Below are positions 3,600 through 56,152 of a DNA stretch of 64,000 nucleotides, in pieces. The DNA is from Rugalucina vietnamica (taxonomy: Eukaryota > Mollusca > Bivalvia > Lucinida > Lucinidae): assembly GCA_964017185.1 (NCBI GenBank), contig OZ024875.1:61871043-61935042 (forward strand), given 5' to 3'. The stretch's first letter is position 1. Each line of letters begins with the position of its first letter. The position numbers were made by a program, and so were the translations under genes. The notes beneath the pieces were generated by a model. It did no database searches. It was not told the origin of the DNA and was given only the letters and a program-made list of their open reading frames with translations.

Positions 3600-4935
3600 C
3601 ATGTCCGTGAAATGTGTACCCCCCCCCCCCCCCCCACACCCCCAAACCCCACTTTTTAATAATAAAACTGGGGTATGCAGGGGTATACCTATTTTTAGCT
3701 TACCTGAGCCGAAGGCTCACAGGTGAGCTTATAGTATACCCATGCTCCGCCGTCCGTCGTCGTCGTCGTCCACACTTTTCAAACAACGTCTCCTCTGAAA
3801 CCGCTGGGCCAATCGAAGTCAAACTTCATGTGGAGCATCCTTAGGAAGGGGGAAGAAAAAGTTATATATATGATACAGGTCACATGACCAAGATGGCTGC
3901 CATGGCTATAAATAGCAAAAACCTTTAAAAATCTTCTTCTCCAGAACCGGAAGGCCTATGATCTTGAAACTTGGCATGAAGCACCATGCAATGGAGCTCT
4001 ACAAAAGTTATATAAATCATGATCCTGCGATGACCTTGACCTATTTTATGGCAAGGTCAACTTGGGTCGCCAATGCATTTGAATGGGGAAAAATGATAAA
4101 ATGCTATTAAATGGGTAAAACTTACTGGGAATAAGTAAATAGACAGAAAATTAATGTTTATGGAAAAATTTTGGCCCCTGGGGGTTGTCTGCCCCTGCCC
4201 CGGGGCTATATACATGTATATTTCCATAATATTGAAACATCTTCTCCTCTGAAACCGCTTGGCCAATCGAAGCCAAACTTCATGTGGAGCATCCTTAGGA
4301 AGAGGGAAAGAAAGTTTATATAAATGGTCTAGGTCACATGACCAAGATGGCCGCCATGGCTATAAATAGCAAAAACCTTTAAAAAATCTTCTTCTCCAGA
4401 ACCAGAAGGCCTATGATTTTGAAACTTGACATGAAGCATCAGGCAATAGAGCTCCACAAAGTTTATATAAATCATGACCCTGGGATGACCTTGACCTTTT
4501 TTACAGCAAGGTCAACTTAGGCCGCCCATGCATTTGAATGGGGAAAATTGTTACAATGTCATTTGAAGGGCAAAACTTGTAGTAAATTGCTAATGGACTG
4601 AATCTTTATGATTTAAAAAAGAAATTGACTGCAGAGGTTGCTCTGACCCTGCCATGGGGTTATATACATGTATATTACCATTCTAGTCAAACAAGTTTAT
4701 TGGTATATATCTCAGGTCTCAGGTGAGCGTTTACAGGACCTTTGGTCCTCTTGTTCTTATTTTTGCTCCAAAACATAGATTATGGGTACTCGTTAGAACC
4801 GGTTCTAACCGTTGTATACCCACAATCTATGTTTTGGAGCAAAATTAAGAAAAACAGCATTTTTTTTCTACTGAAAATTTTCATTTAATAACAACTTTCA
4901 AAATCTCTGTATATTGCATGGGCATGTTTTCGTAT
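3600..4935. mobile_element. Fold-back MITE copy A, split by an insertion at about 3698-4748
   Basis: The family consensus seen across this window runs: ACATGTCCGTGTAATG end, ACCCCACTTTTATATA segment, a palindromic core around GTGGGTACTCGTTAGAACCGC, then ATGCAATATACAGAGA and an end ATGGGCAAGTTTTCGTAATG. Here the first part ends at 3697 and the core resumes at about 4749. The insertion is one unit of the 465-bp repeat family. Confidence 0.75.
3698..4748 (+). repeat. 465-bp-family repeat, two units, plus orientation, with terminal hairpins
   Basis: One end is a hairpin around GAGCCGAAGGCTC (3705-3720), the other a hairpin around AGGACCTTTGGTCCT (4734-4750). Two internal units share CTTCATGTGGAGCATCCTTA at 3824 and 4278, followed by GGTCACATGACCAAGATGG and a CCTTGACCT block. 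It sits inside fold-back copy A, so it inserted later. No coding capacity. Confidence 0.8.
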
Positions 4936-6119: not shown

Positions 6120-8708
6120 ACGGTAACCAGAGGACCATTGGTCCTGAGAACGCTCACCTGAAGCCTGATCTTGGAGTATTAAGTCATAATGAAATGACCT
6201 TGACCTTGAATACTCACACACCTTTATTGACTTCATAAGTTGTCTGCATCTGCAAAGTTTCAGGTCTCAGGCTGCAATAGTTTCCAAACCCAGTGATTTC
6301 TGAGAAAACCATAATTTTAATTTTGATATTTAAATGACCTTGGGCCAAGGTCAAGACATGACCTTGACCTTCATTAATTACTTACCTTCATTGACTCCAA
6401 TAGTTGTCTGCATCTAGCAACTTTCAGGTCTCAGGCTGCAACAGTTTGTTTTCGCCTTTTCCCACCTGAAAGCCTATGTTTCCAAAATTGACCTTGCCGT
6501 AAAATAGGTCAAGGTCATCATAGGGTCATCATTTCAACACTATGATGGGCTGGAGTCCAAAATGCTACATACCAAGTTTCATGAAAATTGGCCTGCCGGT
6601 TCTGGAGAAGAAGATTTTTGAAAGGTTTTTACCGTATATGGGCGTGGCGGCCATCTTGGTCATGTGACCTGGATTTCGCGATCAAACTTTCGTCTCCCCT
6701 ACCCATGGATGCTCCACATAAAATTTCACTTTGATTGGCCGCGCAGTTTCAGAGAAGAAGATCTTTGAAAAGTGTGTATGGACAACAGAATGGCCAAGGT
6801 CAAGAGATGACCTTGACCTATATTAATCACATACCTTCATCTACTCCATTAGTTGTTTGCATCTACCACTTTTCAGGCCTCAGGCTGCAATAGTTTTCAA
6901 AAAATCCATAGTTTTCACTTCTTCCTATGTAAAAGCCTATGTTTCCAAATTTGACCTTGCCGTAAAATAATTCAAGGTCATCCAAGGGTCATCATTTTAT
7001 CAAACTATGATGGGCTGAGGTCCCCGATGCTACATACAAAGTTTTGTGGAAATCGGCCCACCGGCTCTGGAGAAGAAGATTTTTGAGTGGTTTTAACCAT
7101 ATATGGGCGTGGCGGCCATCTTGGTCATGTGACCTGGATTTCGCGATCAAATTTCGTCTCCCCTACCCATGGATGCTCCACATAAAATTTCACTTTGATT
7201 GGCCGCGCAGTTTCAGAGAAGAAGATCTTAGAAAACTGTGTATGGACAACAGACCTGCCAAGGTCAAGAGATAACCTTGACCTATATTAATCACATACCT
7301 TCATCTACTCCATTAGTTGTTTGCATCTACCACTTTTCAGGCCTCAGGCTGCAATAGTTTTCAAAAAATCCATAGTTTTCACTTTTTCCTATGTAAAAGC
7401 CTATGTTTCCAAATTTGACCTTGCCGTAAAATAGGTCAAGGTCATCCAAGGGTCATCATTTTATCAAACTATGATGGGCTGAGGTCCTCAATGCTACATA
7501 CCAAGTTTCATGGAAATCGGCCAGCCGGTTCTGGAGAAGAAGATTTTTGAGTGGTTTTTACCATATATGGGCGTGGCGGCCATCTTGGTCATGTGACCTA
7601 GATTTCGCGATCAAACTTTCGTCTCCCCTATCCATGGATGCTCCACATAAAATTTCACTTTGATTGGCCAAGCAGTTTTAGAGAAGAAGATCTTTGTAAA
7701 GTGTGTATGGACAACAGACTGGCCAAGGTCAAGAGATGACCTTGACCTATATTTATCACATACCTTCATCTACTCCATTAGTTGTTTGCATCTACCACTT
7801 TTCAGGCCTCAGGCTGCAATAGTTTTCAAAAAATCCATAGTTTTCACTTTTTCCTATGTAAAAGCCTATGTTTCCAAATTTGACCTTGCCGTAAAATAGG
7901 TCAAGGTCATCCAAGGGTCATCATTTTATCAAACTATGATGGGCTGAGGTCCTTGATGCTACATACCAAGTTTCGTGGAAATCGGCCCACCGGTTCTGGA
8001 GAAGAAGATTTTTGAGTGGTTTTTACCATATATGGGCGTGGCGGCCATCTTGGTCATGTGACCTGGATTTCGCGATCAAACTTTCGTCTCCCCTATCCAT
8101 GGATGCTCCACATAAAATTTCACTTTGATTGGCCAAGCAGTTTCAGAGAAGAAGATCTTTGAAAAGTGTGTATGGACAACAGACTGGCCAAGGTCAAGAG
8201 ATGACCTTGACCTATATTTATCACATACCTTCATCTACTCCATTAGTTGTTTGCATCTACCACTTTTCAGGCCTCAGGCTGCAATAGTTTTCAAAAAATC
8301 CATAGTTTTCACTTTTTCCCATGTAAAAGTCTATGTTTCCAAATTTGACCTTGCCGTAAAATAGGTCAAGGTCATCCAAGGGTCATCATTTTATCAAACT
8401 ATGATGGGCTGAAGTCCCCGATGCTACATACCAAGTTTCGTGGAAATCCGCCCACCGGTTCTGGAGAAGAGGATTTTTGAAGGGTTTCTACCATATATGG
8501 GCGTGGTGGCCATCTTGGTCATGTGACCTGGATTTCGCGATCAAACTTAAAATGCCACTACCCAAGGAGGCTCCACATAAAATTTCAACTACATAGGCCA
8601 AGAGGTTTCAGAGAAGAAGATCTTTGAAATTGTGGACGACGAACGGACGGACGCCGGATCATGGCCATCCTATAAGCTCACCTTGTGAGCCTTCGGCTCA
8701 GGTGAGCT
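6120..8708 (-). repeat. 465-bp-family tandem array, about five units, minus orientation
   Basis: Bounded by the same two terminal hairpins as the 3698 copy but reversed (AGGACCATTGGTCCT near 6130; TGTGAGCCTTCGGCTCA near 8684). The CCAAGGTCAAGAGATGACC block recurs at 6793, 7257, 7722 and 8187, a period of 464-465 bases. Because 465 is divisible by 3, the same short frame reappears in each unit and looks like a conserved protein; it is not a gene. Units are more than 90% alike by eye, so the expansion looks recent. Confidence 0.85.
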
Positions 8709-20789: not shown

Positions 20790-22160
20790 CTGAATACTCT
20801 GAAACCACTGGGCAAATCAAAGCCAAACTTCATGTGGAGCATCCTTAGGATGGGGGATACCAAAGTTTGTATAAATGGTCCAGGTCACATGACCAAGGTG
20901 GCCACCAGGGCTATAAATAGTAAAAACCTTAAAAAATCTTCTTCTCTGAAACCGGTGGACCGATTTCAATGAAACTTGGTATGTATCATAGGGGACGCCT
21001 GCCCATCATAGTTTATATAAATCATGACCTTGGGTTGACCTTGACCTATTTTACCGCTAGGTCAATTTTGGTCACATAGGCTCTTCAATGGAAAAAAGTG
21101 AGAGCATTGAATTTTTCAGGACATTTTGAAACCTGCGACCTGAAAGTTGGTAGATACAGACAACTTATTGATTTAATGAAGTGTTGTGAGTATCCAAGGT
21201 CAAGGTCATTTCTTGACCTTGACCAAAGGTCATTCACATATTGAATTTAAAACTTTATTTTCTCAGAAACTACTCGACTAATCAAAGCCAAACTTCATGT
21301 GGAGCATCCTTAGGAAGGGGAACCAAAGTTTGAGTAAATGGTCCAGGTCACGTGACCAATATGGCTGCCAGGACTATAAATAGCAAAAAACATAAAAAAA
21401 AAAATTTCTTCTCTGGAACCGGTGGACCGATTTCAATGAAACTTGGTATGTAGCATCGGGGACGCCTGCCCATCATAATTTATATAAAACATGACCTTGG
21501 GTTGACCTTGGCCTATTTTACCGCAAGGTCAATTTTGGTCACATAGGCTCTTCAATGGAAAAAAAGTGAAAGCATTGATTTTTTCAAAAAGTTTCAAAGC
21601 TTATGACCTGAAAGTTGGTAGATACAGACAACTTATTGATTTAATGAAGTGATGTGAGTATTCAAGGTCAAGGCCATTTCTTGACTTTAGCCAAATGTCG
21701 TTTACATATTAAATCTAAAGCTTAATGTTCTCAGAAACCACTTGACTAATCAAAGCCAAACTTCATGTGGAGCATCCTTAGGAACGGAAAATCAAAGTTT
21801 GTATAAATGGCCCAGGTCACATGACCAAGACGGCAGCCAGGGTTATAAATAGCAAAAACCTAAAACAAATCTTCTTCGATGGAACCGACGGATCGATTTC
21901 AATGAAACATACTATGTAGCATCAAGGGCCCTGGCCCATCATAGTTTATATAAATCATGACCTTGGGTTGACCTTGACCTAATTTACAGTAAGATCATAT
22001 TTGGTCACATAGGCTTTTTAATGGAAAAAAAACATGATTTTCAGAATGTTTTAAATAAAACCTGTAACCTGTAAATAGGTAGATACAGACAACTTCTAGA
22101 GTTAATGAAGTTATTTGAGTAATTAAGGTCAAGGTCATTTAGGTCATTTTTCAATCAAAG
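20790..22160 (+). repeat. 465-bp-family tandem array, three units, plus orientation
   Basis: CTTCATGTGGAGCATCCTTA recurs at 20828, 21293 and 21761 (period 465-468), each followed by GGTCACATGACCAA and CCTTGGGTTGACCTTG. Same family as 3698-4748 and 6120-8708 but more diverged between units, so older. Confidence 0.85.
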
Positions 22161-40329: not shown

Positions 40330-41515
40330 AAGTTTCCTCGCATCTTATTTATTTATTGAGAGCGCTTTCCCTCTTGGAATTATCTATGCAAACTTTTTTG
40401 GAAATCGCTCATTAGGCGTTATTATAACATGGCCTGTCCATCTCGGCTGTGCTACATGTAGCTTTAAGACCTATGCATGCTTTGCATCCCTGCCTGCAAC
40501 AGGACCTCTATGTCTGGAATCTTGTCTTGCTATTTGATTTTCAACATTTTTCTCCAACAGCTTAAGTGGAAATGATTCTTGAGTCGCTTTGCATGACGCT
40601 GGTATACTTTTCAGGTCTCCTATGCGTATTAGAGGGGGGGGGGGGGGGACAGTATCACAGCCCTGTAGACTTTCAGCTTGCTGTCAAACTTGATTCCATT
40701 TCACTCCCAGGCATCTGCACAGAATGCCACACTGGCTGGCGCAGTTCTGGCAGTGATCTCATCATCAATGAGCACTGCTCTAGAGAGAGTGCTGGTTGGA
40801 GTCCAACCTCGCTTCAGGTTCTTATGCTGATTGTAAGGTCAGTTATTTCACATGATTGTGCAACTTGATCCACTTACTTGTCCTTGCATTTTTGCTTCTG
40901 CAATGACATTCTTATTCATGCCATCAGCATAGATAAGCTCATCTAGCACATATGTCTGCACCTTAGTGTTGGCTTCCAACCTTCTAAGGTTGACAACTTG
41001 CCATTAAAGCAGCACCTAATTGGGAAGCCAGTATCTATATTCTGACAGTAGTATGGCAGACAATATCAAGCTGAACAGTGTCGGTGCCATCACAAAGCTC
41101 TGTTTGACCAAATTTGTAACCTGAAATGATTCCGAGAACTCTCCAACATTCTGAACAAGAGCCTGCATGCCATCATGAAAGTTGTCGCATCATTGCTATA
41201 TGAATCTGGATGGACAGCCAAACTTCAAACTTGGACATCATCTTCCAGAGTCCATCACGACTGACTGTGTCGAAAGCATTGGTGAGGTATATATATATAT
41301 ATATATACATTCTGTTCGTCATTTTTCTAGTAGTTATCATGTCTTTTGTCGCTCTGTCTTTCCTGAAACCACACTGACGTGCTGGGATGAGTCCCGTCTG
41401 ATCAAGATGAATATTCAGGCGATTCGACAGCATTTTTGCTAGTATCTTTCCAGTACTTGAGGATGGCCTTTCCTTTTGTATAGGTGGATTATGTCCATGC
41501 ATCCTTAAATTCTTA
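40330..41515 (-). pseudogene. Decayed LINE (non-LTR retrotransposon) reverse transcriptase
   Basis: Minus-strand frames show STGKILAKMLSNRLNIHL, CGFRKDRATKDM, AFDTVSRDGLWKMMSKF, then LIYADGMNKN in place of the catalytic YADD, and TLSRAVLIDDEITAR. This is the classic order of an endonuclease-type LINE RT. Stops, frameshifts and an inserted TA repeat (41288-41306) show it is dead. Confidence 0.8.
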
Positions 41516-41528
41516 TGGGATAGCCTCC

Positions 41529-41582
<54 letters not shown>

Positions 41583-43847: not shown

Positions 43848-46800
43848 TTATCATAAAGAATGTCTGTTCATCTACCAATGCAGTCTGTGCATAGTCGTCG
43901 ACAAACCGCATGGTTTTAAACATAACGCTAATGTTACGTCTACACCGGGCCACGTTCTCACTACGTCCTTACTACGTCCTAAAAAAATTAAGGACGTAGT
44001 GAGGACGTGGTACGGACTTGTAGGACGTGGTAGGAACGTAGAAAGGACGTAGTGAGGTCTTGATGGACGCGGAGGTCTTGGTCAAATTTTGAACATGCTC
44101 AAAAGAAACGTGGCGAGGACGGGGTGGGATTAGAACGCAGTAAGGACGTAGTAAGGACGTGGTAAGGACGTAGTAGGAACTTGTAGGACGTAGAAAGAAC
44201 GTGGCGCAAACGTAGTGCGGTCTTCGTGGACGCGTTGCAAATTTGTTGCAGACCATCAAGACCTCGCTACGCTTTTACTACGTCCTCGCTACGTCCTCGC
44301 TACGTCCATCAAGTTCTCGACAAGACCATACCACGCTTCTTGTACGTCCTTACCGCGTCCTAGATGACTGCACTGCGTTCTTATCACGTCCTAGCGGTTC
44401 CTAACACGTCCTTAGTAGGTTCTTATCACGTTCACACCAGGTTCGAACTACGTCCTCCACGTTTTATTAATTTTGTTTTAATTGTCCCGTACCCTCAAGC
44501 AATTGCTTTCGCTTTTATTTAAATCATATCGTAATCGAAACATGAACAGAGAAGTACTCTTGTAACTTGCTCTCCTTCAAGGACATCATGCCTTACTTGG
44601 TGCACAGGCTGCACTTGTGCTATTTCACAGGAGGAGGAATAGAAGGGCAAGATCTTGTTGGGTGCGCCCTTGGCTATCAGCTGAAAGGAGGCTTCAGTAT
44701 GGGCATTACGACCGACTACTAGCGGAGTTGAGGATAGAGGCATTCTTCAATTTCATGCGAATACCACCGGAAATGTTGTCCGCCCGTCATTTTCTTACTG
44801 CAATTTCAAGCTGTTTCGCAACTTATCTGACTCTTAATATACGACTGATTAATATATTTACAGTTAGAACGTACTGGAAACGTAGTTCGCGCGTGGTATG
44901 AACTGCTTGGTCTTTGTGAGGACGTAGCAAGGACGTAGTGGAAACGGGATGAACTTGGTGAGCGCGTATTGAGGACGTAGTGGAAACGTGAAGGACGTAG
45001 TAAGGACGTGATGCGGACGTAATAAGAACGTGGCGGGGACGTAGTAAGGACGTAGTGGGAACTTAGAAATCCGAAATTGTTTCATTTTGACCCCGTCCTC
45101 GCCACGTTCTTGAATTTTAAGAACGTGGTAAGGACGTAGTGAGAACGTGGTCCAGTGTAGACGTAACATAAAGATGTGGTTTGATCCCAGAAGCCGCAGT
45201 CATTTTCGTTTGTTCGTGTTCAACGACTGATTAATATCCCACTCAACATTTTTGGCCGGAACCTAAGCTTCATGGATAGTAGCAACTACCTCACACATAC
45301 ACCCATGAAATGCCTAAATAAACACCTAGCGGGGGGGGGGGGATGCAACACGAGAATAAATATTATTTTCATCGTCCGTCCTGGTCCGTGGTAACAAATG
45401 AACTGCTTATTTAATAAAATCATGTGTGCTATTAAGAAATAAATACACCACGAAAACTTGCCCATGCAATATACAGAGATTTTTTCAGCGGTAAAAATTG
45501 AGAGTTTTGTCGGATTTTTTTTTTTATTTTTATTTTTTTATTTTTATTTTATTTTTTTTTTTGTGGGTGCACGTTAGAACCGCCTCAGTACGCTTTACAC
45601 GGACGTTTTCATTATGAAAAGTAAAAAAAAGATCAGCTTGTGCAACATCAAATGTGTTTGCTGCTAGAGTAGCGTGGTAACTGTGCAGGTTGCGCATTTC
45701 GCTCATGTGGTACTATGGCAAAAAGCAATCGTCGAAATTTCGAAAGCCATTGCAACAGCGAAAATTCTTTTAAAATTAACCTCGAATACAGGTTTTTGAT
45801 GGTTACACACAATTCACAGTCGATAAGCCAGTGGTTAGCAGATAATCTGTGTTTTAATTACAAGTTTAGCTGCACAATTGAAACTGATAGTGTATTGATG
45901 TAAACAATAGGAAAAGCAGAACTGCTTATCATGTATAATGTCACATAAATCCCGCCACCATCCATTTTGACTTTCCCTTTCTGTTCTCTGACCAAAGATA
46001 CAACATGGCGCATTTTTCCTTTTTTTTTCTTCTGTTGTTTTGCGTTTATACAGTTCAAATTTTGTGTGTGGGAGAAACTAATTAAGGTGTAGTACAAGTA
46101 CTGGACCCTGTCTTACAGTTACCTCCCCTATATCACAAGTACTGGTCCCTGTCCTACAGTTACCTCCCCTATATCACAAGTACTTGTCCCTGTCCTACAG
46201 TTACCTCCCCTTTATCACAAGTAATGGTCCATGTCCAACAGTTGCCTCTACTATATCACAAGTAGTGGTCCCTGTCCTAGAGTTACCTCCCCTATATCAC
46301 AAGTACTGGTCCCTGTCCAACAGTTACCTCCACTATATCACAAGTACTGGTCCATGTCCTAGAGTTACCTCCACTATATTACAAGTAGTGGTCCCTGTCC
46401 TAGAGTTACCTCCCCTATATCCCAAGAGTTCTGGACCCTGTCCTACAGTTGACTCCCCTTTATCACAAGTACTGGTCCCTGTCCTACAGCTACCTCCCAT
46501 ATATCACATGTACTGGTCTCTGCCCAACAGTTACCTCCACTATATCACAAGTAGTGGACCCTGTCCTACAGTTACCTCCCCTATATCACATCCTCTATAT
46601 CACAAGTACTGAACCCTGTCCTACCGATATATCCCCTATATCACAAGTACTGGACCCTATCCAACAGTTGCCTCCACTATATCACCAGAGCTGGACCCTT
46701 TCCTACAGTTACCTTCCTTCTATCACAAGTACTTGTCCCTTGTGGACCGGTTCATCACATATATCACAAATACTGGAACCTGTCATACAGTTACCTCCCC

Positions 46801-49800
46801 TATATCACAAGTACTGGCCCTAATCCTACAGGTACATCCTCTTTATCACAAGTACTGCTCCCTGTCCAATAGTTACCTCACCTATATCTCAAGCACTGGA
46901 TTCTGCCGTACAGTTTCCTCCCCCATATCACAAGTACTAGTTTGCCCTACCGGTAAATTCCCTATATAAGTACTGGGTACTGCCCTACCGCTATTCATCG
47001 TAAATCACATGTACTGTAACCTGTCCTGTCGGTACATCCCCTATATCACAAGTACTGGACCCTGCCCTACCGGTACATCCCCTAAAGCACAAGTACTGGG
47101 CTCTGTCCCACAGTAACCTCCCCTATATCACAAGTACTGGTCCTTATCCTACCGGTACATCCCTTATATCACAAGTACTGGACCCTGTTGTACCGGTTCC
47201 TCTCCTGTATCACAAATAATGGACCCTGCCATAAAGGTGCATGTGCATCCCCCATATCACAAGTACTGGATCCTGTCCTACCGTAACAACCACTATATCA
47301 AAAGACCAGGCCCATGACTTAGCAGTACATCCCCTATATCACAAATACAGGACCATGCCATACCGGTATAATCACCATATCATAAGTAATGGACCCTGAC
47401 CTACTGTAACATCCCCTATATCACAAGTTCTGGTCCCTGTCCTACCAGTATATCCCCTATATCACAAGTACTGGACCCTGTCTTACCGTTACATCCCTAT
47501 GTCACAAGTACTGACCCTGACCTACCAATACATCTCCTATATCACAAGTACGGGACCCTGCCCTACCGATACATTCCCTAAATCACAAGTGCTGGACTCT
47601 GTCCCACAGTAACACCCTCTATATCATCAGCACTGGTCCCTATCACACCGTTAATTTCCCTATAACACAAATACTGGACGATGTCCTACCAGTACATCCC
47701 CCATATCAGAAGTACTGGACCCTGTCTTACCGTTACATCCCTATGTCACAAGTACTGGACCCTGACCTACCAATACATCTCCTATATCACAAGTACGGGA
47801 CCCTGCCCTACCGATACATTCCCTAAATCACAAGTGCTGGACTCTGTCCCACATTAACACCCTCTATATCACCAGCACTGGTCCCTATCCTACCGGTACA
47901 TCCCTTATATCACAAGTACTTGACCCTGTTTTACCGGTACCACTCCTGTATCACAAATACTGGACCCTGCCGTAAAGGAACATCCCCCATATCAAAAGTA
48001 TTGGACCCTGTCCTACCGTTACAACCCCTATATCAAAAGACCAGGACCATGACTTACCGGAGCATCCCCTATATCACAAGTACTGGGCCATGCCCTACCG
48101 GTATAATCCCCAGTTCCAAGTAATGGACCCTGTCCTACAGAAGCATACCCTATATCACAAGTACTCGTCCCTGTCCTACCGGTTTATCCACTATATCATA
48201 AGTACTGGACCCTGCCACTCCGTTACTTCCCCTTTATCACAAGTACTGGACGATTTCCTACTGACACATCCCCCATATCAGAAGTACTGGACACTGCCCT
48301 ACCGTTACATCCCTATGTCACACGTACTGGACCCTGAACTACCGGTACATCCCCCGTATCACAAGTACTGGACCTTGCCCTACCGATACATCCCCTAAAT
48401 CACAAATGCTGGACTCTGTCCCACAGTAACCTCCCTATATTAGTATATCACAGGTACTGGTCCCTATCATACCGCTACATCCCCTATATCACAAGTACTG
48501 GTCACTTTCCTACCGCTTAGCCCACTATATCCCTAGTACTGTACACTTACCTACCGGTACATCCCCTATATCACAAGTACTATTCCCTGTCTTACAGAAA
48601 CCACCCCTATATCACAAGAACTGGACACTGTCCTACCGGTATATCCCCTATATCACAAGTACTGGACCCTTTCCTACAGTTACCTCTCCTATATCACAAT
48701 TACTGGTCTTTGTCCTAGCGGTACATACCCTATAGCACAAGAACTGGACCCTGTCCTACAGTTACCTCTCCTATATCACAAGTACTGCACGCAGCTTAGC
48801 GACGTTACAACCTTTATTACATAGACAGTGCGTAAGTAAAGAAGGAGCCTCTAACCATGTTCGTAAAGCCCCTATTTCACTGGAATGCGACAACTGGAGA
48901 CTAGTTCGAGCCTATTTCGCGACAAAGATCAACGATATTAACAAAACTTTCACATCGCAGTCTCCTTGAATGGACTTTACGAGACAAATTCGCGATTTTC
49001 GGTCTAATTTTGAAAATATATCTCGGAATTGTCGCGCGATAGTCGCGTGACTGTCGTATGACATTCGCGGGACATTCGTGAGATTGTCTCACGACGTTCC
49101 CACGAACGTAGCTTTAGTTTCATTTTCATTCGTACGATAGTCGAGAGACATTCGTAAGAGTGTCTCACGACATTCGTACGAATGTCGCTTAGTTTTATTT
49201 TCTCGCCAGATAGTCGCGAGGACTGTCGCGCAACTATCGTACGGCATTCGTACGACGATCGCACGAGAGTCGCGAAATTTTGGCATTGTAAATTCGCCAA
49301 AATTTCGCGGCGACATGTTCGCGACACTCGCATGAACGTCGTACGACTGTCGCACGACAGTCACGCGACAGTCTTGCGACACGTTTTGTCAAAAAGAATC
49401 GCATAAAGTTTTTAAACATATTATAAACTTTCGCGACCAGTTCGCGACTAGTTCGCGACACATGAAAATTCTCACGACACTCGCAAAACAGTCGCCAGAA
49501 ATTTGCATGCCAGTGAGATACTAGCTTAAGCTGTACACTCAAGGCTTATCTATCTAGCTATTGATACTGCGTCACCCTCATTACTGAGTATTATGCGCTG
49601 GTTTGTGTTGGATAGGGTCGAAAAATCTTTAGGACAGGTTTTCTCACGACAAGGCGTATTGATATCCTATATTAATGCAATTAACAAATTGCAATTATAA
49701 GTCTGACTCGTATTAACTTTTCCAAGTTGGTTAGTCGTTTTCCCACTTAGTCGCATTTCCCACTTAGTCGCATTTCCCACTTAAGCGCCTGACGGACGTT

Positions 49801-52800
49801 TTCCTAGATAGTCGTAACTTTTTCCTACTTAAGCGCATTTCCGACAGCCGCCTAACATACGTAGCTTTATTTTCAGGTCCTTTGTGTCGAGTGAACCCTC
49901 TAACAGATCGGGGAAAGAGGTTCCAGTTGTTCAAGATCCTCTGTCTGACCGTCATACCAATCCTTGGGGTGTGGGGCTTCACCATGTACTCCCTCTCCGA
50001 CAGCGTGGAGGGGAAAGCCGACATTGAAACGGTAAGGTTTTCTTTCTTTTATTTTCTTTCTGTTGGGTTTGTTCATTCGTTTAAAGCGCTGATCTTAAGT
50101 TTTTTAAAGCTAGTCTAAACCGACATGCGGAGATGTTTTGAAAAAAGTGACTACCGAACTGTCTTCTAGAAAAGTGAAATGTTATATAACACTACCAGAC
50201 ACTCATTGGAAATGCCTAGATGGTTTTTGTATTTATTAATATCGTGTTACATAAAATTAATATAATAAATAGAAGATTCTGTTTTGCATTGTTGTGATCA
50301 AGTGGCCCAGTAGATTTCTGTTGTGATTTTTGACCAGTAGGGTTTCTTTTTCGAAAACAAAGAGACGATCTATGCCAATTAACAGTCCGTCCATATTTAG
50401 GCCTATAAAGCCGAGTTATGCATCGGAACCGCTTTTTGGTTTGATGCTGTACGTGTGTCTGTCCTTTTCGGAAACCCCAAAGACATGATGTATTCTTCCT
50501 TAAACAGGCCAAAGGCTCTATGTCCATCGTAGTGGTCCTGGGTCGACTTATTCACAGACTCCAAATGGAGCGGGACATGAGCGTCCTGTACCTTAGTGAC
50601 CTGGGCCCGGGCACGAAGACCTTCCTCCTGGCCGAGTACATGGCGACTGACGACGCCCTAGAACAGCTCACCATCTGGCCCGGGGCGCTTCAGAGCAACC
50701 CTAAAGAACAGTACCGGAGCAAAGTAAACCTCATGTCCTATATTGCCCAGCACCGGACGTCATTGAACCCAAAGAAGGTCGACTTGTTTGAGGAGATCAA
50801 CTTCTACAGCGACATTACGAGCGAGTTCTTGGAGTGGCTTGTGGAGAACATAAAGGGCTCGGGGTTCGGATCAACCTGGAAGACCCTGGTCGCCTACCAG
50901 AAGGTCACGAGGTGTAAGGAGGACATTGGGGTGGAGCGGGCGTACGGTGCCATGTTTTATACCAATGGACATTTCCCGAAGTGGGTGGATTTCGAGTTCT
51001 ACAACTATCAGGTCCATGATTTCAAGTATAATTACAAGACGGCTGTGTTCTATTCTGACATCGTGGTGCCATTGTTGAGAGAGGAGGTGAAGGAACTCAA
51101 GTCAACAGGTAAAGAACATATTCGAAACAGCAAACAAAAGTAATACGACGTCATGAACACCATGCAGTTACATGAGAATAATTTTGAATCCTCCAGCAAA
51201 ACTTTGTCCGGTCCAAGCTATAAGATGTCAAAACTTTGGCAACAAATAAACACCTTTACTGCCTCCGTTGTCACAATCAATAACAGGTGTGTCTCTTTGT
51301 TATCAGACTTGAAATAAAACAAAAAAAGGCATTTAGTATACATTCTATGAAAAATAATGTGTCTGAATCATTGTGTGACCCGATGCCCCAAGAGGAGTCA
51401 GTATGTTGGTTTGGTTAAGGCAACAGAATGTCCACCATTTGGGAAATAGCTATTACGGCTTATGTATGCTCCTTAAACAAGCTTTATTCACGTTGTAGGT
51501 GTCAACATCACGGTAACAATCAACGCCTACCGTTACGAGATACAGTATCACGACCTGAATACCTCGTACAAGTCGGAAGAGAAGACGAAATGGTTTTTCG
51601 ACAACATGACGGAGTATCTCGACTCACTACTCGACATTCAAGAACAAGTGGCGGGAAAGATCACGGAAGAGGTACTTGGATCGTTTTGAAGCTAGGGTTT
51701 ACAGAATACGAGTATCTCGCTTTAAGATTTAAACGTCAGAGTTAATGTGTACCTTAAACGCATGCCGCAGCAAATTGAACAAATGCAACAAAAGTTGTTG
51801 ACTACAGTGTTTTTATTACACCGAAACTTCGAGTCTAGCAGAATCTGTGTTTGGTACATTTTGGGGGAAGGGGTTATGTAAAGGTATGCGTTTACCAATA
51901 AATGATAGGCTTAAAGGGAAACGCAACGTTGAAGTACAATGAATCTTATATGAAAGTACTCACCTCCCTAAACAATTTGGTACAAGTTTTATCATTGGAT
52001 GAAAATTAAGAAAGTTATGTTGGTTTGAATACTCCCTGATTTCTGTTTAAGGAGGCAGCCATCTTGGATATTTATGAGGCTTTATGACGTCATAAAGCCC
52101 AAATTAAAAATGCTTTATCAAGATTAATGAAACACTGTTAATATAAATCTGTAAATTTTAGTTTTAATGTGTCCTTCCTCGGTGTCCTTCTCTTGGTTTC
52201 CTATCAATTTTGGCCATATTTTGCCATATTAATATTGAAATATAAAATTTATACAATGCTTTGATTTTTGCAGTTTCTAATTTTAAAAATATTCAAACTG
52301 GCGGCCGAAAGTCACTTCGTTCCAAACATATCAAATGCCAAGATCGCCGATTTGAACAAAATTTGCACCAATATGTTTGCTTTGAATAGATCTTTACTTT
52401 TAAAGGTATTGTTGTTGACTATTGCGTTCCCCTTTAATAATGAATTAAACAGACGCATACAGCATAACTTTTGATCTGTAGTAACATGAAAGTATCAATC
52501 CATTTACATAATATTGTTTTGTTTCACTTCAAACTACAGGTTGAAGCGGTCCTATCCCAAATCGTGACCAAGGTCGTCATCTATGCCTCTATGGTAGTGG
52601 TTGTCATAGCAATGTGTCCCGTTATCATGTTTTCGTCCGAGGCTTTGGCAAGTGACATCCAACGCTATACACAGACACTGGTGGAGAAAACTAAAGAGCT
52701 GAACTTGGAGAAGCACAAGACAGATACATTGCTGTATCAGATGGTACCGAAATCTATTGCTGAACGACTGAAAAACAGTACAGCGGTGGAATCGGAGTTC

Positions 52801-53691
52801 TTTAGGTGAGCGTAAATATATCTGATATGCATCAATACCATTTAATCTGACCCATTTCGTGCCCTAGAGACCTTGCCTGTGCGATAAGTTTGCATTGTGT
52901 CGTTGATAGCCTTACCCGACCTTGACGATGCTGGTTGATGATTTCCGACTCAGTTGGCTTCAAATCTTTTCCTCTTTTCAATTTCAGATCCGTGACGATA
53001 TTTTTCTCTGGAATATTTGGGTTTAGTCGAGTCTGTACTGAGTGCTCTCCCATGGACTTGGTGAGGATTCTGAACAGCCTGTACACGTCTATGGACGAAC
53101 AGATCGGTCTCTACGACGTGTACAAAGTTGAAACTATCAATGACTGTTATATGGTGGCTTCAGGTATGGGAACTTCATTATGGGATGGGTAACAATATAA
53201 AAATCGAATATCGTGCTAATGGGGCAATTTATCAATAGAACTGGTCAGATTTACTAATAGTAGAAAAAACTTCTGGATGGCCGTCGTGAACATGTGAATG
53301 CTAATTTTTAGATCATCTGAATAAAAAATGGTCAACACTATTGGCACCTTTTTCGCTAAGTGCTTTGTTCAATATCAAGACACTGCATGCATATATAGAT
53401 ATCTGTGCATCTGTCTTTTAGGTTTACCGAACCGTAATGAGGAACGTCACGTGACTGAGATAGCCAATCTGGCTCTGGATGTTCTGCACATGTCAAGAAA
53501 CAAGAAGTTTCCTAATTCGGAAAATACCCCCGTTCAGCTGCAAATTGGAATTAATACAGGTGACAATGCCTTCTCAATCTCAAAAGCATTAATGCTGTGT
53601 TCTTTTTGAGTTTAGAAATGAATTTTAAAGTTCCTTTTGGGGATTCTAATTGGTATGAAGTATATAGTTCTAAATTATAAAACAGTGCTAT

Positions 53692-53762
<71 letters not shown>

Positions 53763-56152
53763 TTTTCGGTACTGCATGAAACTAACTTTCTGTATGCGAT
53801 CTAACAAGGTGTTAATTAAACTGCCTGTAAAATAATAGTTAGTTCGGAAGTTCAGTGGTGGCCTGTATGTAAAGATTAAATTTGAACACTACTATAGTTT
53901 TCAGTAGCTAAATTTATATGCCCTCGTCGTAGAATTGCATATCTTACATTAATTCATCACTGAGATTAAAGGAAAATTAGACCACTTTGATTCGTAAACA
54001 TGTTGAATTTCAGGAGATTATTCCCATTATAAACGCGTTCACGGCGTTTTGGGGGAACCTTGAAGCAATGCTTCTCGTAATCAAGAACTCAAAATGGTTA
54101 AACTCTACTTACATCACATGTATTAAATTTAGTCAAGTCAATGTAAATCTTATTTTAATCAACTAATTACATCTACTAGAAATTACAGGGCCGTTTTACC
54201 TTGTTAACTACTAGTTATTTGATAGACACTTTCCTCGTGTCATATAATGCATCAGGTAAATGTAGTTACATGTAGTCCATACATTAATATCCTAAATATG
54301 TTCTCATATTCATATTAGGGTCAGTATCTGCTGGGATTGTGGGTTCTATTATGCTGAGGTATTGCCTGTTCGGAGATACGGTCAACATTGCCTCGAGGAT
54401 GAAGTCATACGGATTGCGTAAGTCTACCAGTGGGACAGCAGTGTTATTTGCAGATTTATTTGTTTCGTTATAGCTGAATTTGCAATTTTATCACCCATCT
54501 AAAATCATTACGAAGACTTGCCCATGCAATATACAGTGATATTTTTCAGGTTAAAAAAAAATGAAAATTTCATTGGAAAAATTTTGATATAAAACATTTT
54601 TGTTCAAAACATTCACAGTGGGAACACTTTAGAACGCCTCGATTCTAACGAGTACCCACAATCTATGTTTTGGACCAAAACTAAGAAAAATAGGAATACC
54701 CATGTAAACCCAAGTTTTACTAGATAAAAGTTGGGGTATGAAGCGTATAGATTTCACGGACATGTTGTCTTGATGTTATGCATGCGTTCTGCTTTTCTAT
54801 TTAAAGTATTCATAATTATTATATACCATAAAGTTGAAAACACCATTATGCGAAGTTTTTCTTTCTTTAATCGAACAATTTAAGTTCGATTGCAAGATAT
54901 CCTGAAAATTAGTTGAACATTTTTTTAAAGATAACTATTTTTACGGAAGTTCACAGGTCTTTCATTTTGTTTTCAGCGAATAGGATCCATATCAGTGAAA
55001 ACACGTACCTGTGTCTCAAGAAGGCGGGCAAATTCAAGATGAAGTTTCGTGGAAATCTTGATATCAAGGTATTAACCCTTTAATGTAGAATGGATCCACC
55101 TATCATTATCAGTTGTATGAGTCCACTTTCATTTTCGGTGAATCAGGAGTGATTTTCAAATTTTATTCGATGTAACTCCTCGAAGCAACAGAAACATTGG
55201 TTTCCGCCACATGTATTTCGTTATGTCCGAGCCCGGCTCTAGATGCCATTTTTTTATTAGGTACAAATTTTTAATATACATCAGTAAATTATTCCTTTTA
55301 TTATTTTAAACCAGTCTACACTTAAGACTCCCCGATGTTTTGTACTGCGTTGCAATATTTTATGATTTATGTAAATATGTGTATATGTTTTATACACTAT
55401 GAGGGCCACATTGATAGTTAAATGTGTTTCACCCTCTTTAAATAATGTATATAAATAAATAAAATAAATAAATATCACCAGATGGGACGCTGCGTTCTGC
55501 GGCGTCACATCTGGGGCTATACTGTTTGCATATGCCCCATAAAAAGGAATTCAAACAACAGTTTCAATGGTAGTATTCCTATCTTAGCAGAATTTATACC
55601 ATGCATTATTGAAAAGAAGGATTAAAGCATTCCAATAACATAATGTCAGACTCTCATAACACTCCACGTATCAGTGCAAATGCTTTTAAATGTCAGTATG
55701 TGGATTCTACGTTCAAGTCCCCTATCGGCTTCCGTAGGATTCAGTTGTTCACTTTAAGTCTTTCCACGTTTAGGGGTTTCATTCCCATAAATGCCAAATC
55801 ACCAACGGAGATGATATGTACAGATTGAAGGCCACATACAAACCAATGTCTTTCGGTAGTGGCAACAATGCCATAGGTTTTCTAATGTTCTTCTGTTATA
55901 TAGGGTAAAGGTCACATGGATACCTACTGGTTGTTGGACAAGTCTTACGGCGGTAGTAGTAAGGTCAAGGACGACACATCCGAGACGCTGATGACGCAAC
56001 AAATGACATCACATCAAGATCAGATGGAGACCAAACTGACAGGCGGAGGAATACAAAGTCCAAGTCAACGCCGAAAGGTGAATAGCAACGAAGAGGCAAG
56101 ACCTAAAGATATGTACGAGCCCCATGATCATGATGGAGGCGAAACGACATGA
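42408..56152 (+). CDS. NIT-domain receptor guanylate cyclase, 11 exons, 687 aa, one metal-site Asp missing
   Basis: Exons: 42408-42430, 42997-43088, 49877-50031, 50508-51108, 51499-51671, 52540-52805, 52988-53163, 53422-53559, 54319-54417, 54977-55068, 55904-56152. They total 2,064 nt in frame. Layout: short cytosolic N-terminus; TM1 about 55-76 ([19 protein letters not shown]); extracellular NIT domain in exons 4-5, with the typical [17 protein letters not shown] start; TM2 about 360-382; a coiled linker ([20 protein letters not shown]); class III cyclase about 438-605; an 80-residue polar tail. Guanylate-type residues are present: KVET (Glu485), YCLFGDTVN with its Cys, Asn and SRM Arg. The usual FSDIVGFT reads FSGIFGFS (Gly445), while the second Asp is kept (Asp489, TINDCY). 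Animal NIT-GCs have been linked to nitric oxide signalling in the annelid Platynereis. Possible outcomes are a weak or inactive cyclase, or an obligate heterodimer subunit. Confidence 0.9.
43469..43545 (+). mobile_element. Partial GC-hairpin MITE (left part)
   Basis: GCCGCATCATGGGAAAACC followed by a decayed core AGATCAGCTGAGCAGCTGAG. A matching right part, GGTTTGTGTTGGATAGGG ... GGTTTTCTCACG, is at 49600-49655 in the same orientation. Confidence 0.5.
43766..43846. repeat. Poly-A and (CA)n microsatellite
   Basis: About 20 A, then CA repeats from 43794 to 43846. Confidence 0.95.
43932..45168. mobile_element. Self-similar inverted-repeat element, GGACGTAG family, Harbinger-like
   Basis: The ends TGTTACGTCTACACCGG and, in reverse complement, TGTTACGTCTACACTGG match. 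TAA lies directly outside both (43929-43931, 45169-45171), a 3-base duplication typical of PIF/Harbinger transposons. Both arms are dozens of degenerate GGACGTAGTAAGGACGTGGT units, in the other orientation over 44265-44460. In the middle (44617-44780) a plus-strand frame reads [27 protein letters not shown] and [11 protein letters not shown], like the N-terminus of Harbinger/ALP1-type transposases; the catalytic part is absent. Confidence 0.75.
45448..45620. mobile_element. Fold-back MITE copy H, reduced
   Basis: ACGAAAACTTGCCCATGCAA start, T-rich middle, GTTAGAACCGCCTCAG, ACACGGACGTTTTCATTATG end; half of the core is lost. Confidence 0.65.
46095..48790. repeat. 41-bp minisatellite, about 65 copies
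   Basis: The unit is approximately TATATCACAAGTACTGGTCC plus CTGTCCTACAGTTACCTCCCC. Exact 41-base steps are visible at 46099, 46140 and 46181. Copies vary by substitutions and small indels. The first third favours ACAGTTACCTCC, the middle and last thirds ACCGGTACATCC, so subfamilies are blocked along the array. It lies in intron 2 of the NIT cyclase gene; long tri-frame reading stretches over it are artefacts. Confidence 0.95.
48876..49519. mobile_element. Self-similar inverted-repeat element, CGCGACAGTCG family
   Basis: The ends TTCACTGGAATGCGA and (reverse complement of the right) CTCACTGGCATGCAA form an imperfect terminal repeat. The interior is built from degenerate words such as GTCGCGCGA, CATTCGTACGA and GTCTCACGAC on both strands. 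No coding capacity. In intron 2 of the NIT cyclase gene; a partial relative is at 9675-9865. Confidence 0.7.
51911..52437. mobile_element. TTAA-flanked MITE of about 520 bp
   Basis: TTAA then AGGGAAACGCAA at the left (51911) and, in reverse complement, TTAA then AGGGGAACGCAA at the right (52437). TTAA target sites are typical of piggyBac-type elements. It contains a TATGACGTCATA palindrome near 52083. In intron 5 of the NIT cyclase gene. Confidence 0.65.
53691..53764. repeat. (TTTA)n microsatellite
   Basis: About 18 uninterrupted TTTA units in intron 8 of the NIT cyclase gene. Confidence 0.95.
54508..54770. mobile_element. Fold-back MITE copy I
   Basis: CATTACGAAGACTTGCCCAT start, core with CGAGTACCCACAATCTATG, TTTCACGGACATGTTGTC end. 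In intron 9 of the NIT cyclase gene. Confidence 0.75.

Follow-up and report, generated by a model that had tools for sequence, protein, structure and literature searches.

The window, by which we mean the whole stretch of 64,000 nucleotides of Rugalucina vietnamica DNA under analysis, carries on its plus strand a guanylate cyclase gene of which nine exons were located, spanning 49877 to 56152. All nine are open and every internal end is AG/GT; the exon or exons with the start codon, upstream of 49877, were not located. The first located exon (49877..50031) encodes a first hydrophobic, probably transmembrane, helix and is followed by the exon for the nitrate/nitrite sensing (NIT) domain with both of its Glu-Arg motifs (50508..51108), and then by the exon in which this domain ends (51499..51671). 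A second hydrophobic and probably transmembrane helix lies together with a signalling-helix linker at 52540..52805. The first cyclase exon (52988..53163) carries the motifs FFSGIFGFS and ETINDCY between AG and GT splice sites, further cyclase exons lie at 53422..53559, 54319..54417, and 54977..55068, and the last exon (55904..56152) encodes a hydrophilic tail to the stop codon.

A Pfam scan of the 578 residues of the spliced window protein placed the NIT domain (PF08376, residues 55-296, E=1.8e-19) upstream of the cyclase domain (PF00211, residues 383-567, E=4.6e-60, 202.8 bits, the family cut-off being 21.9). The only other match at E<=0.001 in these 578 residues was to HNOBA, restricted to the last 42 positions of the profile (175-216), its signalling-helix part, and falling in the linker exon. 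An H-NOX domain gave no Pfam match in these residues, which start at the first located exon. By eye in the translation, hydrophobic stretches flank the NIT domain on both sides and are putatively transmembrane. A search for solved-structure relatives of the NIT exon gave one chance match (E=0.52). By analogy with other NIT-containing guanylate cyclases (NIT-GCs), which have been proposed as receptors for NO or nitrate/nitrite (PMC7400543), the NIT sensor of the window protein may have nitrate, nitrite, or NO as its ligand.

Elsewhere in the window, a tandem array with a 41-base unit runs for about 2.7 kb (46094-48787); long stretches of it are open in several frames, and its end lies about 1.1 kb upstream of the first exon located for the cyclase gene. 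Another array, at 6343-8629, is made up of five copies of a 465-base unit with a 92% match, and arrays of 454- and 468-base units at 3781-4681 and 20797-22031 have a stretch of sequence in common. An open frame on the minus strand (41173-41529) matches the reverse transcriptase family PF00078 just above the cut-off (E=6.6e-7) and is likely a retroelement remnant. Rfam gave no match within the window.

We scored the catalytic domain at the eight active-site positions of soluble guanylate cyclase (sGC), as numbered in section 13 of PMC3591389, and the window protein reads GEDQCNRK. At position 1 a Gly (GGA, 53010..53012) replaces a metal-binding Asp, and at position 4 a Gln (CAA, 53541..53543) replaces an Arg that contacts the triphosphate. 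The other six are kept: the guanine-selecting Glu at position 2 (53130..53132), the second metal-binding Asp at position 3 (53142..53144), Cys at position 5 (codon from 54363), Asn at position 6 (codon from 54384), Arg at position 7 (codon from 54396), and Lys at position 8 (codon from 55066). A first-pass annotation of this DNA had read FFSGIFGFS in the exon at 52988-53163, and both the exon bounds and the Gly were confirmed; it had also listed Glu, Asp, Cys, Asn, and Arg as kept, which holds for all five, but it missed the loss of Arg 4. The losses are thus confined to the metal and triphosphate half of the site, where two of three residues (Asp 1 and Arg 4) are gone, and the other half is intact at all five positions (Glu, Cys, Asn, Arg, and Lys), the five that the sGC beta chain contributes. 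The protein does not hold the full catalytic set in one chain as active homodimers do, a set that is not needed for membership of PF00211. We also considered whether an acidic residue nearby might compensate for the Gly and set the idea aside, as the nine residues on each side of it contain none.

This division of the residues is familiar from sGC, in which one active site is shared by two chains, the alpha chain contributing positions 1 (Asp), 3 (Asp), and 4 (Arg) and the beta chain positions 2 (Glu), 5 (Cys), 6 (Asn), 7 (Arg), and 8 (Lys) (PMC3591389). Human sGC homodimers are reported to be inactive because the residues are split between the chains (PMC3591389), although some sGC beta subunits are reported to be active as homodimers (PMC5225109). 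Five solved sGC beta-1 sequences (6jt0_B, 9oxn_B, 6pas_B, 4ni2_B, and 3uvj_B) all read FSGIVGF at the position-1 site, as does the sGC beta in the clam's own genome (L033), which scores GEDTCNR with only a chance-level match at position 8; the genome's sGC alpha scores DEDRCTK. Like the window protein, sGC beta has lost positions 1 and 4 and kept 2, 3, 5, 6, and 7, as read in the genome's own copy, with the solved chains aligned at position 1, and sGC beta-1 works as half of a catalytic site together with an alpha subunit (PMC3591389). An Asp at the FFSD site, which the first-pass annotation took as the rule for class III cyclases, is therefore not universal, and since Gly is the sGC beta state the Gly alone is ordinary. 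The two proteins otherwise differ: sGC is soluble and has a heme NO-binding domain, whereas the window protein has a NIT domain and hydrophobic segments with no H-NOX match, and in our tree it groups with the NIT-GCs, apart from sGC.

The sGC comparison also bears on the idea that the window protein is an active homodimer with an altered metal mechanism, binding metal through the second Asp only and perhaps using Mn2+. Retention of that Asp agrees with such a mechanism, but the genome's own sGC beta retains it too, and homodimers of human sGC reportedly have no activity (PMC3591389). Arg 4, which contacts the triphosphate, is missing as well, and the first acidic residue near the Gly is reached only ten residues further on, at the Glu of CTEC. 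We regard an altered metal mechanism as very improbable.

NIT matches were found at seven loci in the clam's own genome (1.09 Gb, 47 contigs). With the window NIT protein as query, four loci, the window included, matched at 49% identity or more, and one matched at 32% (C14:45.93). The tandem neighbour, on C7 and on the same strand about 29 kb downstream measured exon to exon, keeps all eight active-site residues (DEDRCNRK). Paralogue C5:45.19 (SEDLCNRK) has lost the same two positions as the window protein, 1 and 4. The reverse is found in paralogue C13:40.93 (DEDRCYRE), in which the alpha side is kept and two beta-side positions, 6 and 8, are lost, the Lys-to-Glu change at position 8 being read at an exon end whose next exon was not found; it retains Arg 7, leaving the beta half incompletely broken. 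Residues 1, 3, and 4, which would complement those of the window protein, are present in both the neighbour and the C13 paralogue.

Three further cyclases are associated with NIT matches, two of which (C14:45.94 and C14:41.90) are complete at positions 1-7. The third, C7:3.92 (L023), is a probable NIT-GC that keeps both metal Asps and Arg 4; its sole change in positions 1-7 is Lys for the transition-state Arg 7 (HYCVFGEAVNVAQKM), and it may be another alpha-leaning subunit. In the case of C14:45.94 and C7:3.92, some 9-16 kb separate the NIT match from the cyclase exons, and the two are joined by position alone. What makes the window gene of interest is the combination, within one receptor family, of its paired losses with a matching C5 gene and a mirrored C13 gene. 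As to gene structure, the neighbour (L010 6740-7955, C7:61.95) has its NIT domain, second hydrophobic segment, linker, and first cyclase exon in a single 1216-base exon, where the window copy has introns. The neighbour's motif, FSDIYDF, also has an Asp where Gly is usual.

The paralogues speak as well to the possibility that the Gly is an assembly or sequencing error at this codon, or that an alternative exon supplies FSD in its place. The Gly is known from one assembly alone, and the Gly/Gln state may be confined to this assembly or to this species. Both clade paralogues that retain the position-1 Asp have the codon GAC, however, from which GGA differs at two bases, so a single miscalled base cannot account for the Gly, and the second loss sits in a different exon. 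We searched for a second FSD exon, which the first-pass annotation had named as an observation that would overturn its reading, in the window and in four adjoining 10 kb stretches (L009-L012) and found none except the neighbour's own in L010, the remaining matches reaching E=0.06 at best. An error or an alternative exon is, on this evidence, barely credible.

The history of the losses was examined with a tree of hand-spliced exons from which the eight active-site positions had been removed. Four genes with the motif IND(C/S/T)Y form one clade (99/98), and the Glu-Arg motifs of both NIT helices are present in all four copies. Within the clade the window gene and its neighbour group together (94/81) and C5 is outermost (87/77), a topology that implies that positions 1 and 4 were lost twice. 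With a longer alignment that includes the NIT domain, the tree joining the window gene to C5 is 3.6 log units worse (AU p=0.295), so that one shared loss is not rejected, and the grouping of window and neighbour is not resolved against C13. A beta-type subunit that has been maintained fits either history, whether the matching losses occurred twice or there was a single old loss after which the other half was long conserved.

Whether the gene is decaying can be judged from its rate of change. Between the window gene and its neighbour dN = 0.22 (NG86) and dS is saturated, which indicates that selection has on average been purifying, although this need not hold for the time since the losses; because dS is saturated in most comparisons we quote no dN/dS ratio. 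Changes unique to the window gene number 28 against 37 for the neighbour with C13 as outgroup, and 20 against 40 with C5 as outgroup. When only the cyclase domain is considered, the counts become 14 against 12 and 8 against 8, so the window gene is not the slower of the two there. The window branch is not accelerated relative to the neighbour, and no frame breaks or bad splice sites were found across the nine located exons. A pseudogene was set aside given the open exons, canonical splice ends, and lack of acceleration. The argument of the first-pass annotation that a dead gene would have lost other residues too still stands. A recent inactivation, with catalysis lost and decay beginning too early to have left frameshifts, would explain why two catalytic residues are gone, and the saturation of dS makes the losses on this branch undatable. 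We nonetheless consider it improbable: besides the open exons with canonical splice ends and the lack of acceleration against the neighbour, both losses fall in the same half of the site and match those of sGC beta and of the C5 paralogue.

To see how unusual this pattern is, we scored 30 cyclase loci in the genome, and 24 of them gave a reading at both position 1 and position 4. Both are lost in three of the 24 (the window gene, C5, and sGC beta) and neither is lost in the remaining 21, a joint loss with a Fisher p of 0.0005, or 0.004 without sGC beta; a 25-gene version that includes C1:39.66 gives p=0.0004. These values overstate the case, as genes are treated as independent and shared ancestry is ignored. 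One-sidedness by itself is less striking, since the chance that three genes with two losses each (window, C5, and C13) all come out one-sided is p=0.10. Left out of the 24-gene count were C13:4.28, C10:0.54, C9:41.35, and C9:41.26, with position 1 unread, as well as C10:16.68, with position 4 unread, and C1:39.66, whose "D" lies in non-coding sequence. At five loci where the match ran into an intron the best-scoring residue was overridden: position 1 of C3:79.03 (its exon reads FSDICGF), position 4 of C14:41.90 and position 3 of C14:45.94 were read from exons, and position 2 of C8:49.78 and of C15:31.27 was taken from a second match. Outside the scored set are L001, L002, L008, L021, and L034-L039, which are adenylate-cyclase-like or degenerate by eye, and the survey leaves out at least six cyclase loci (C10:14.7, C10:33.5, C12:27.0, C1:11.97, C17:2.59, and C14:19.56).

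Other departures from the usual residues turned up in the survey. C10:16.68 (L031), sGC-like in appearance, has the motif FSYMVGF, in which Tyr takes the place of the metal Asp, and keeps positions 2, 3, 5, 6, and 7. The receptor-type genes L004 and L005 (C3:14.08 and C3:31.11) have Thr for the guanine-selecting Cys (RYTLFGDTVN) and are complete at the other positions read.

Taken together, we propose that the window gene is probably a membrane NIT-GC that has become a beta-type half-site subunit needing an alpha-type NIT-GC as partner. A homodimer of the window protein would contain no intact site and should have little or no activity. If it pairs instead with an alpha-type NIT-GC, that partner would supply the Asp, Asp, and Arg of positions 1, 3, and 4, and the window protein would supply guanine recognition, the ribose Asn, the phosphate-stabilizing Arg, and the Lys. 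As in sGC alpha/beta, one of the two sites would then work and the other would be dead. The candidate partners would be the tandem neighbour on C7 and the C13 paralogue, the latter forming an sGC-like pair; the neighbour, with all eight residues, could also homodimerize without need of a partner. With a NIT sensor on each subunit, two sensory inputs would be joined at one catalytic centre. This mechanism is a strong prediction from the residue pattern and the open exons, rather than a demonstration.

The first-pass annotation had offered three explanations for the Gly, of which a heterodimer subunit is now favoured, because the loss of positions 1 and 4 is that of sGC beta, recurs in C5, and is mirrored in C13; an altered metal mechanism finds no support, and a pseudo-cyclase is less favoured. 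As a regulatory pseudo-cyclase the window protein would pair with the neighbour or another NIT-GC and act mainly as a damper or gate on it, or as the bearer of a second NIT sensor, with little output from the shared site. The intact neighbour could homodimerize actively, and a half-site partner would cut its two sites to one; the Gly and Gln, moreover, damage the metal and triphosphate half. A pure inhibitor, however, would have no need of the five beta-side residues, all of which are kept, and the reverse loss in C13 is what is expected if both halves are used. We therefore judge a purely regulatory role to be unlikely, though less so than recent inactivation.

Beyond the beta-type half-site reading of the window gene itself lies a broader proposal, which we hold more tentatively and as something less than probable. 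In the NIT-GCs of this lineage, alpha- and beta-type subunits may have evolved anew from complete homodimeric cyclases, the beta type perhaps twice (in the window gene and in C5) and by the same two losses as in sGC beta. The products would be obligate mix-and-match heterodimers, each combining two NIT sensors with a single catalytic site, and the sGC split would have recurred in a membrane receptor that senses NO or nitrate/nitrite. If so, the division of labour between sGC alpha and beta would have been repeated in another cyclase family. If some NIT-GCs are obligate half-site subunits, assays that express a single gene would misscore them as dead, and receptor identity would be set by which pairs meet in a cell. 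The presence of complete, alpha-like, and beta-like states in one genome makes the split testable by expression and mutation.

We found no report of split-site NIT-GCs in the open-licence literature. NIT-GCs occur in many animals, with molluscs among the groups that have the most (PMC7400543), and the placozoan set described there has the NIT domain between two transmembrane segments, followed by the cyclase; the window protein has its domains in this order, with putatively transmembrane stretches on either side of NIT. A commentary reports that in Platynereis two of them, NIT-GC1 and NIT-GC2, are found together in photoreceptor cells, which require NIT-GC1 in order to receive NO signals (PMC10584369). 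The portions of these two sources that describe animal NIT-GCs (PMC7400543, PMC10584369) make no mention of catalytic-residue loss or of heterodimer pairing. Pairing is known from other membrane guanylyl cyclases. The chytrid NeoR/RGC enzymes are active only as heterodimers (PMC7655827, PMC8815786), but RGC1 and RGC2 are both said to keep all residues relevant to cyclization (PMC8815786), so that in chytrids the pairing is not forced by lost residues. Closer to what we propose are DAF-11 and ODR-1 of Caenorhabditis elegans, membrane guanylyl cyclases described as obligate partners, with both monomers contributing residues essential to the one catalytic site of the pair (PMC5225109). By the scheme of that review they have an extracellular domain and a kinase-homology domain, and its account of them mentions no NIT domain. 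The likeness is drawn from this description, and on that footing DAF-11/ODR-1 provide a precedent for a split site in a membrane receptor cyclase.
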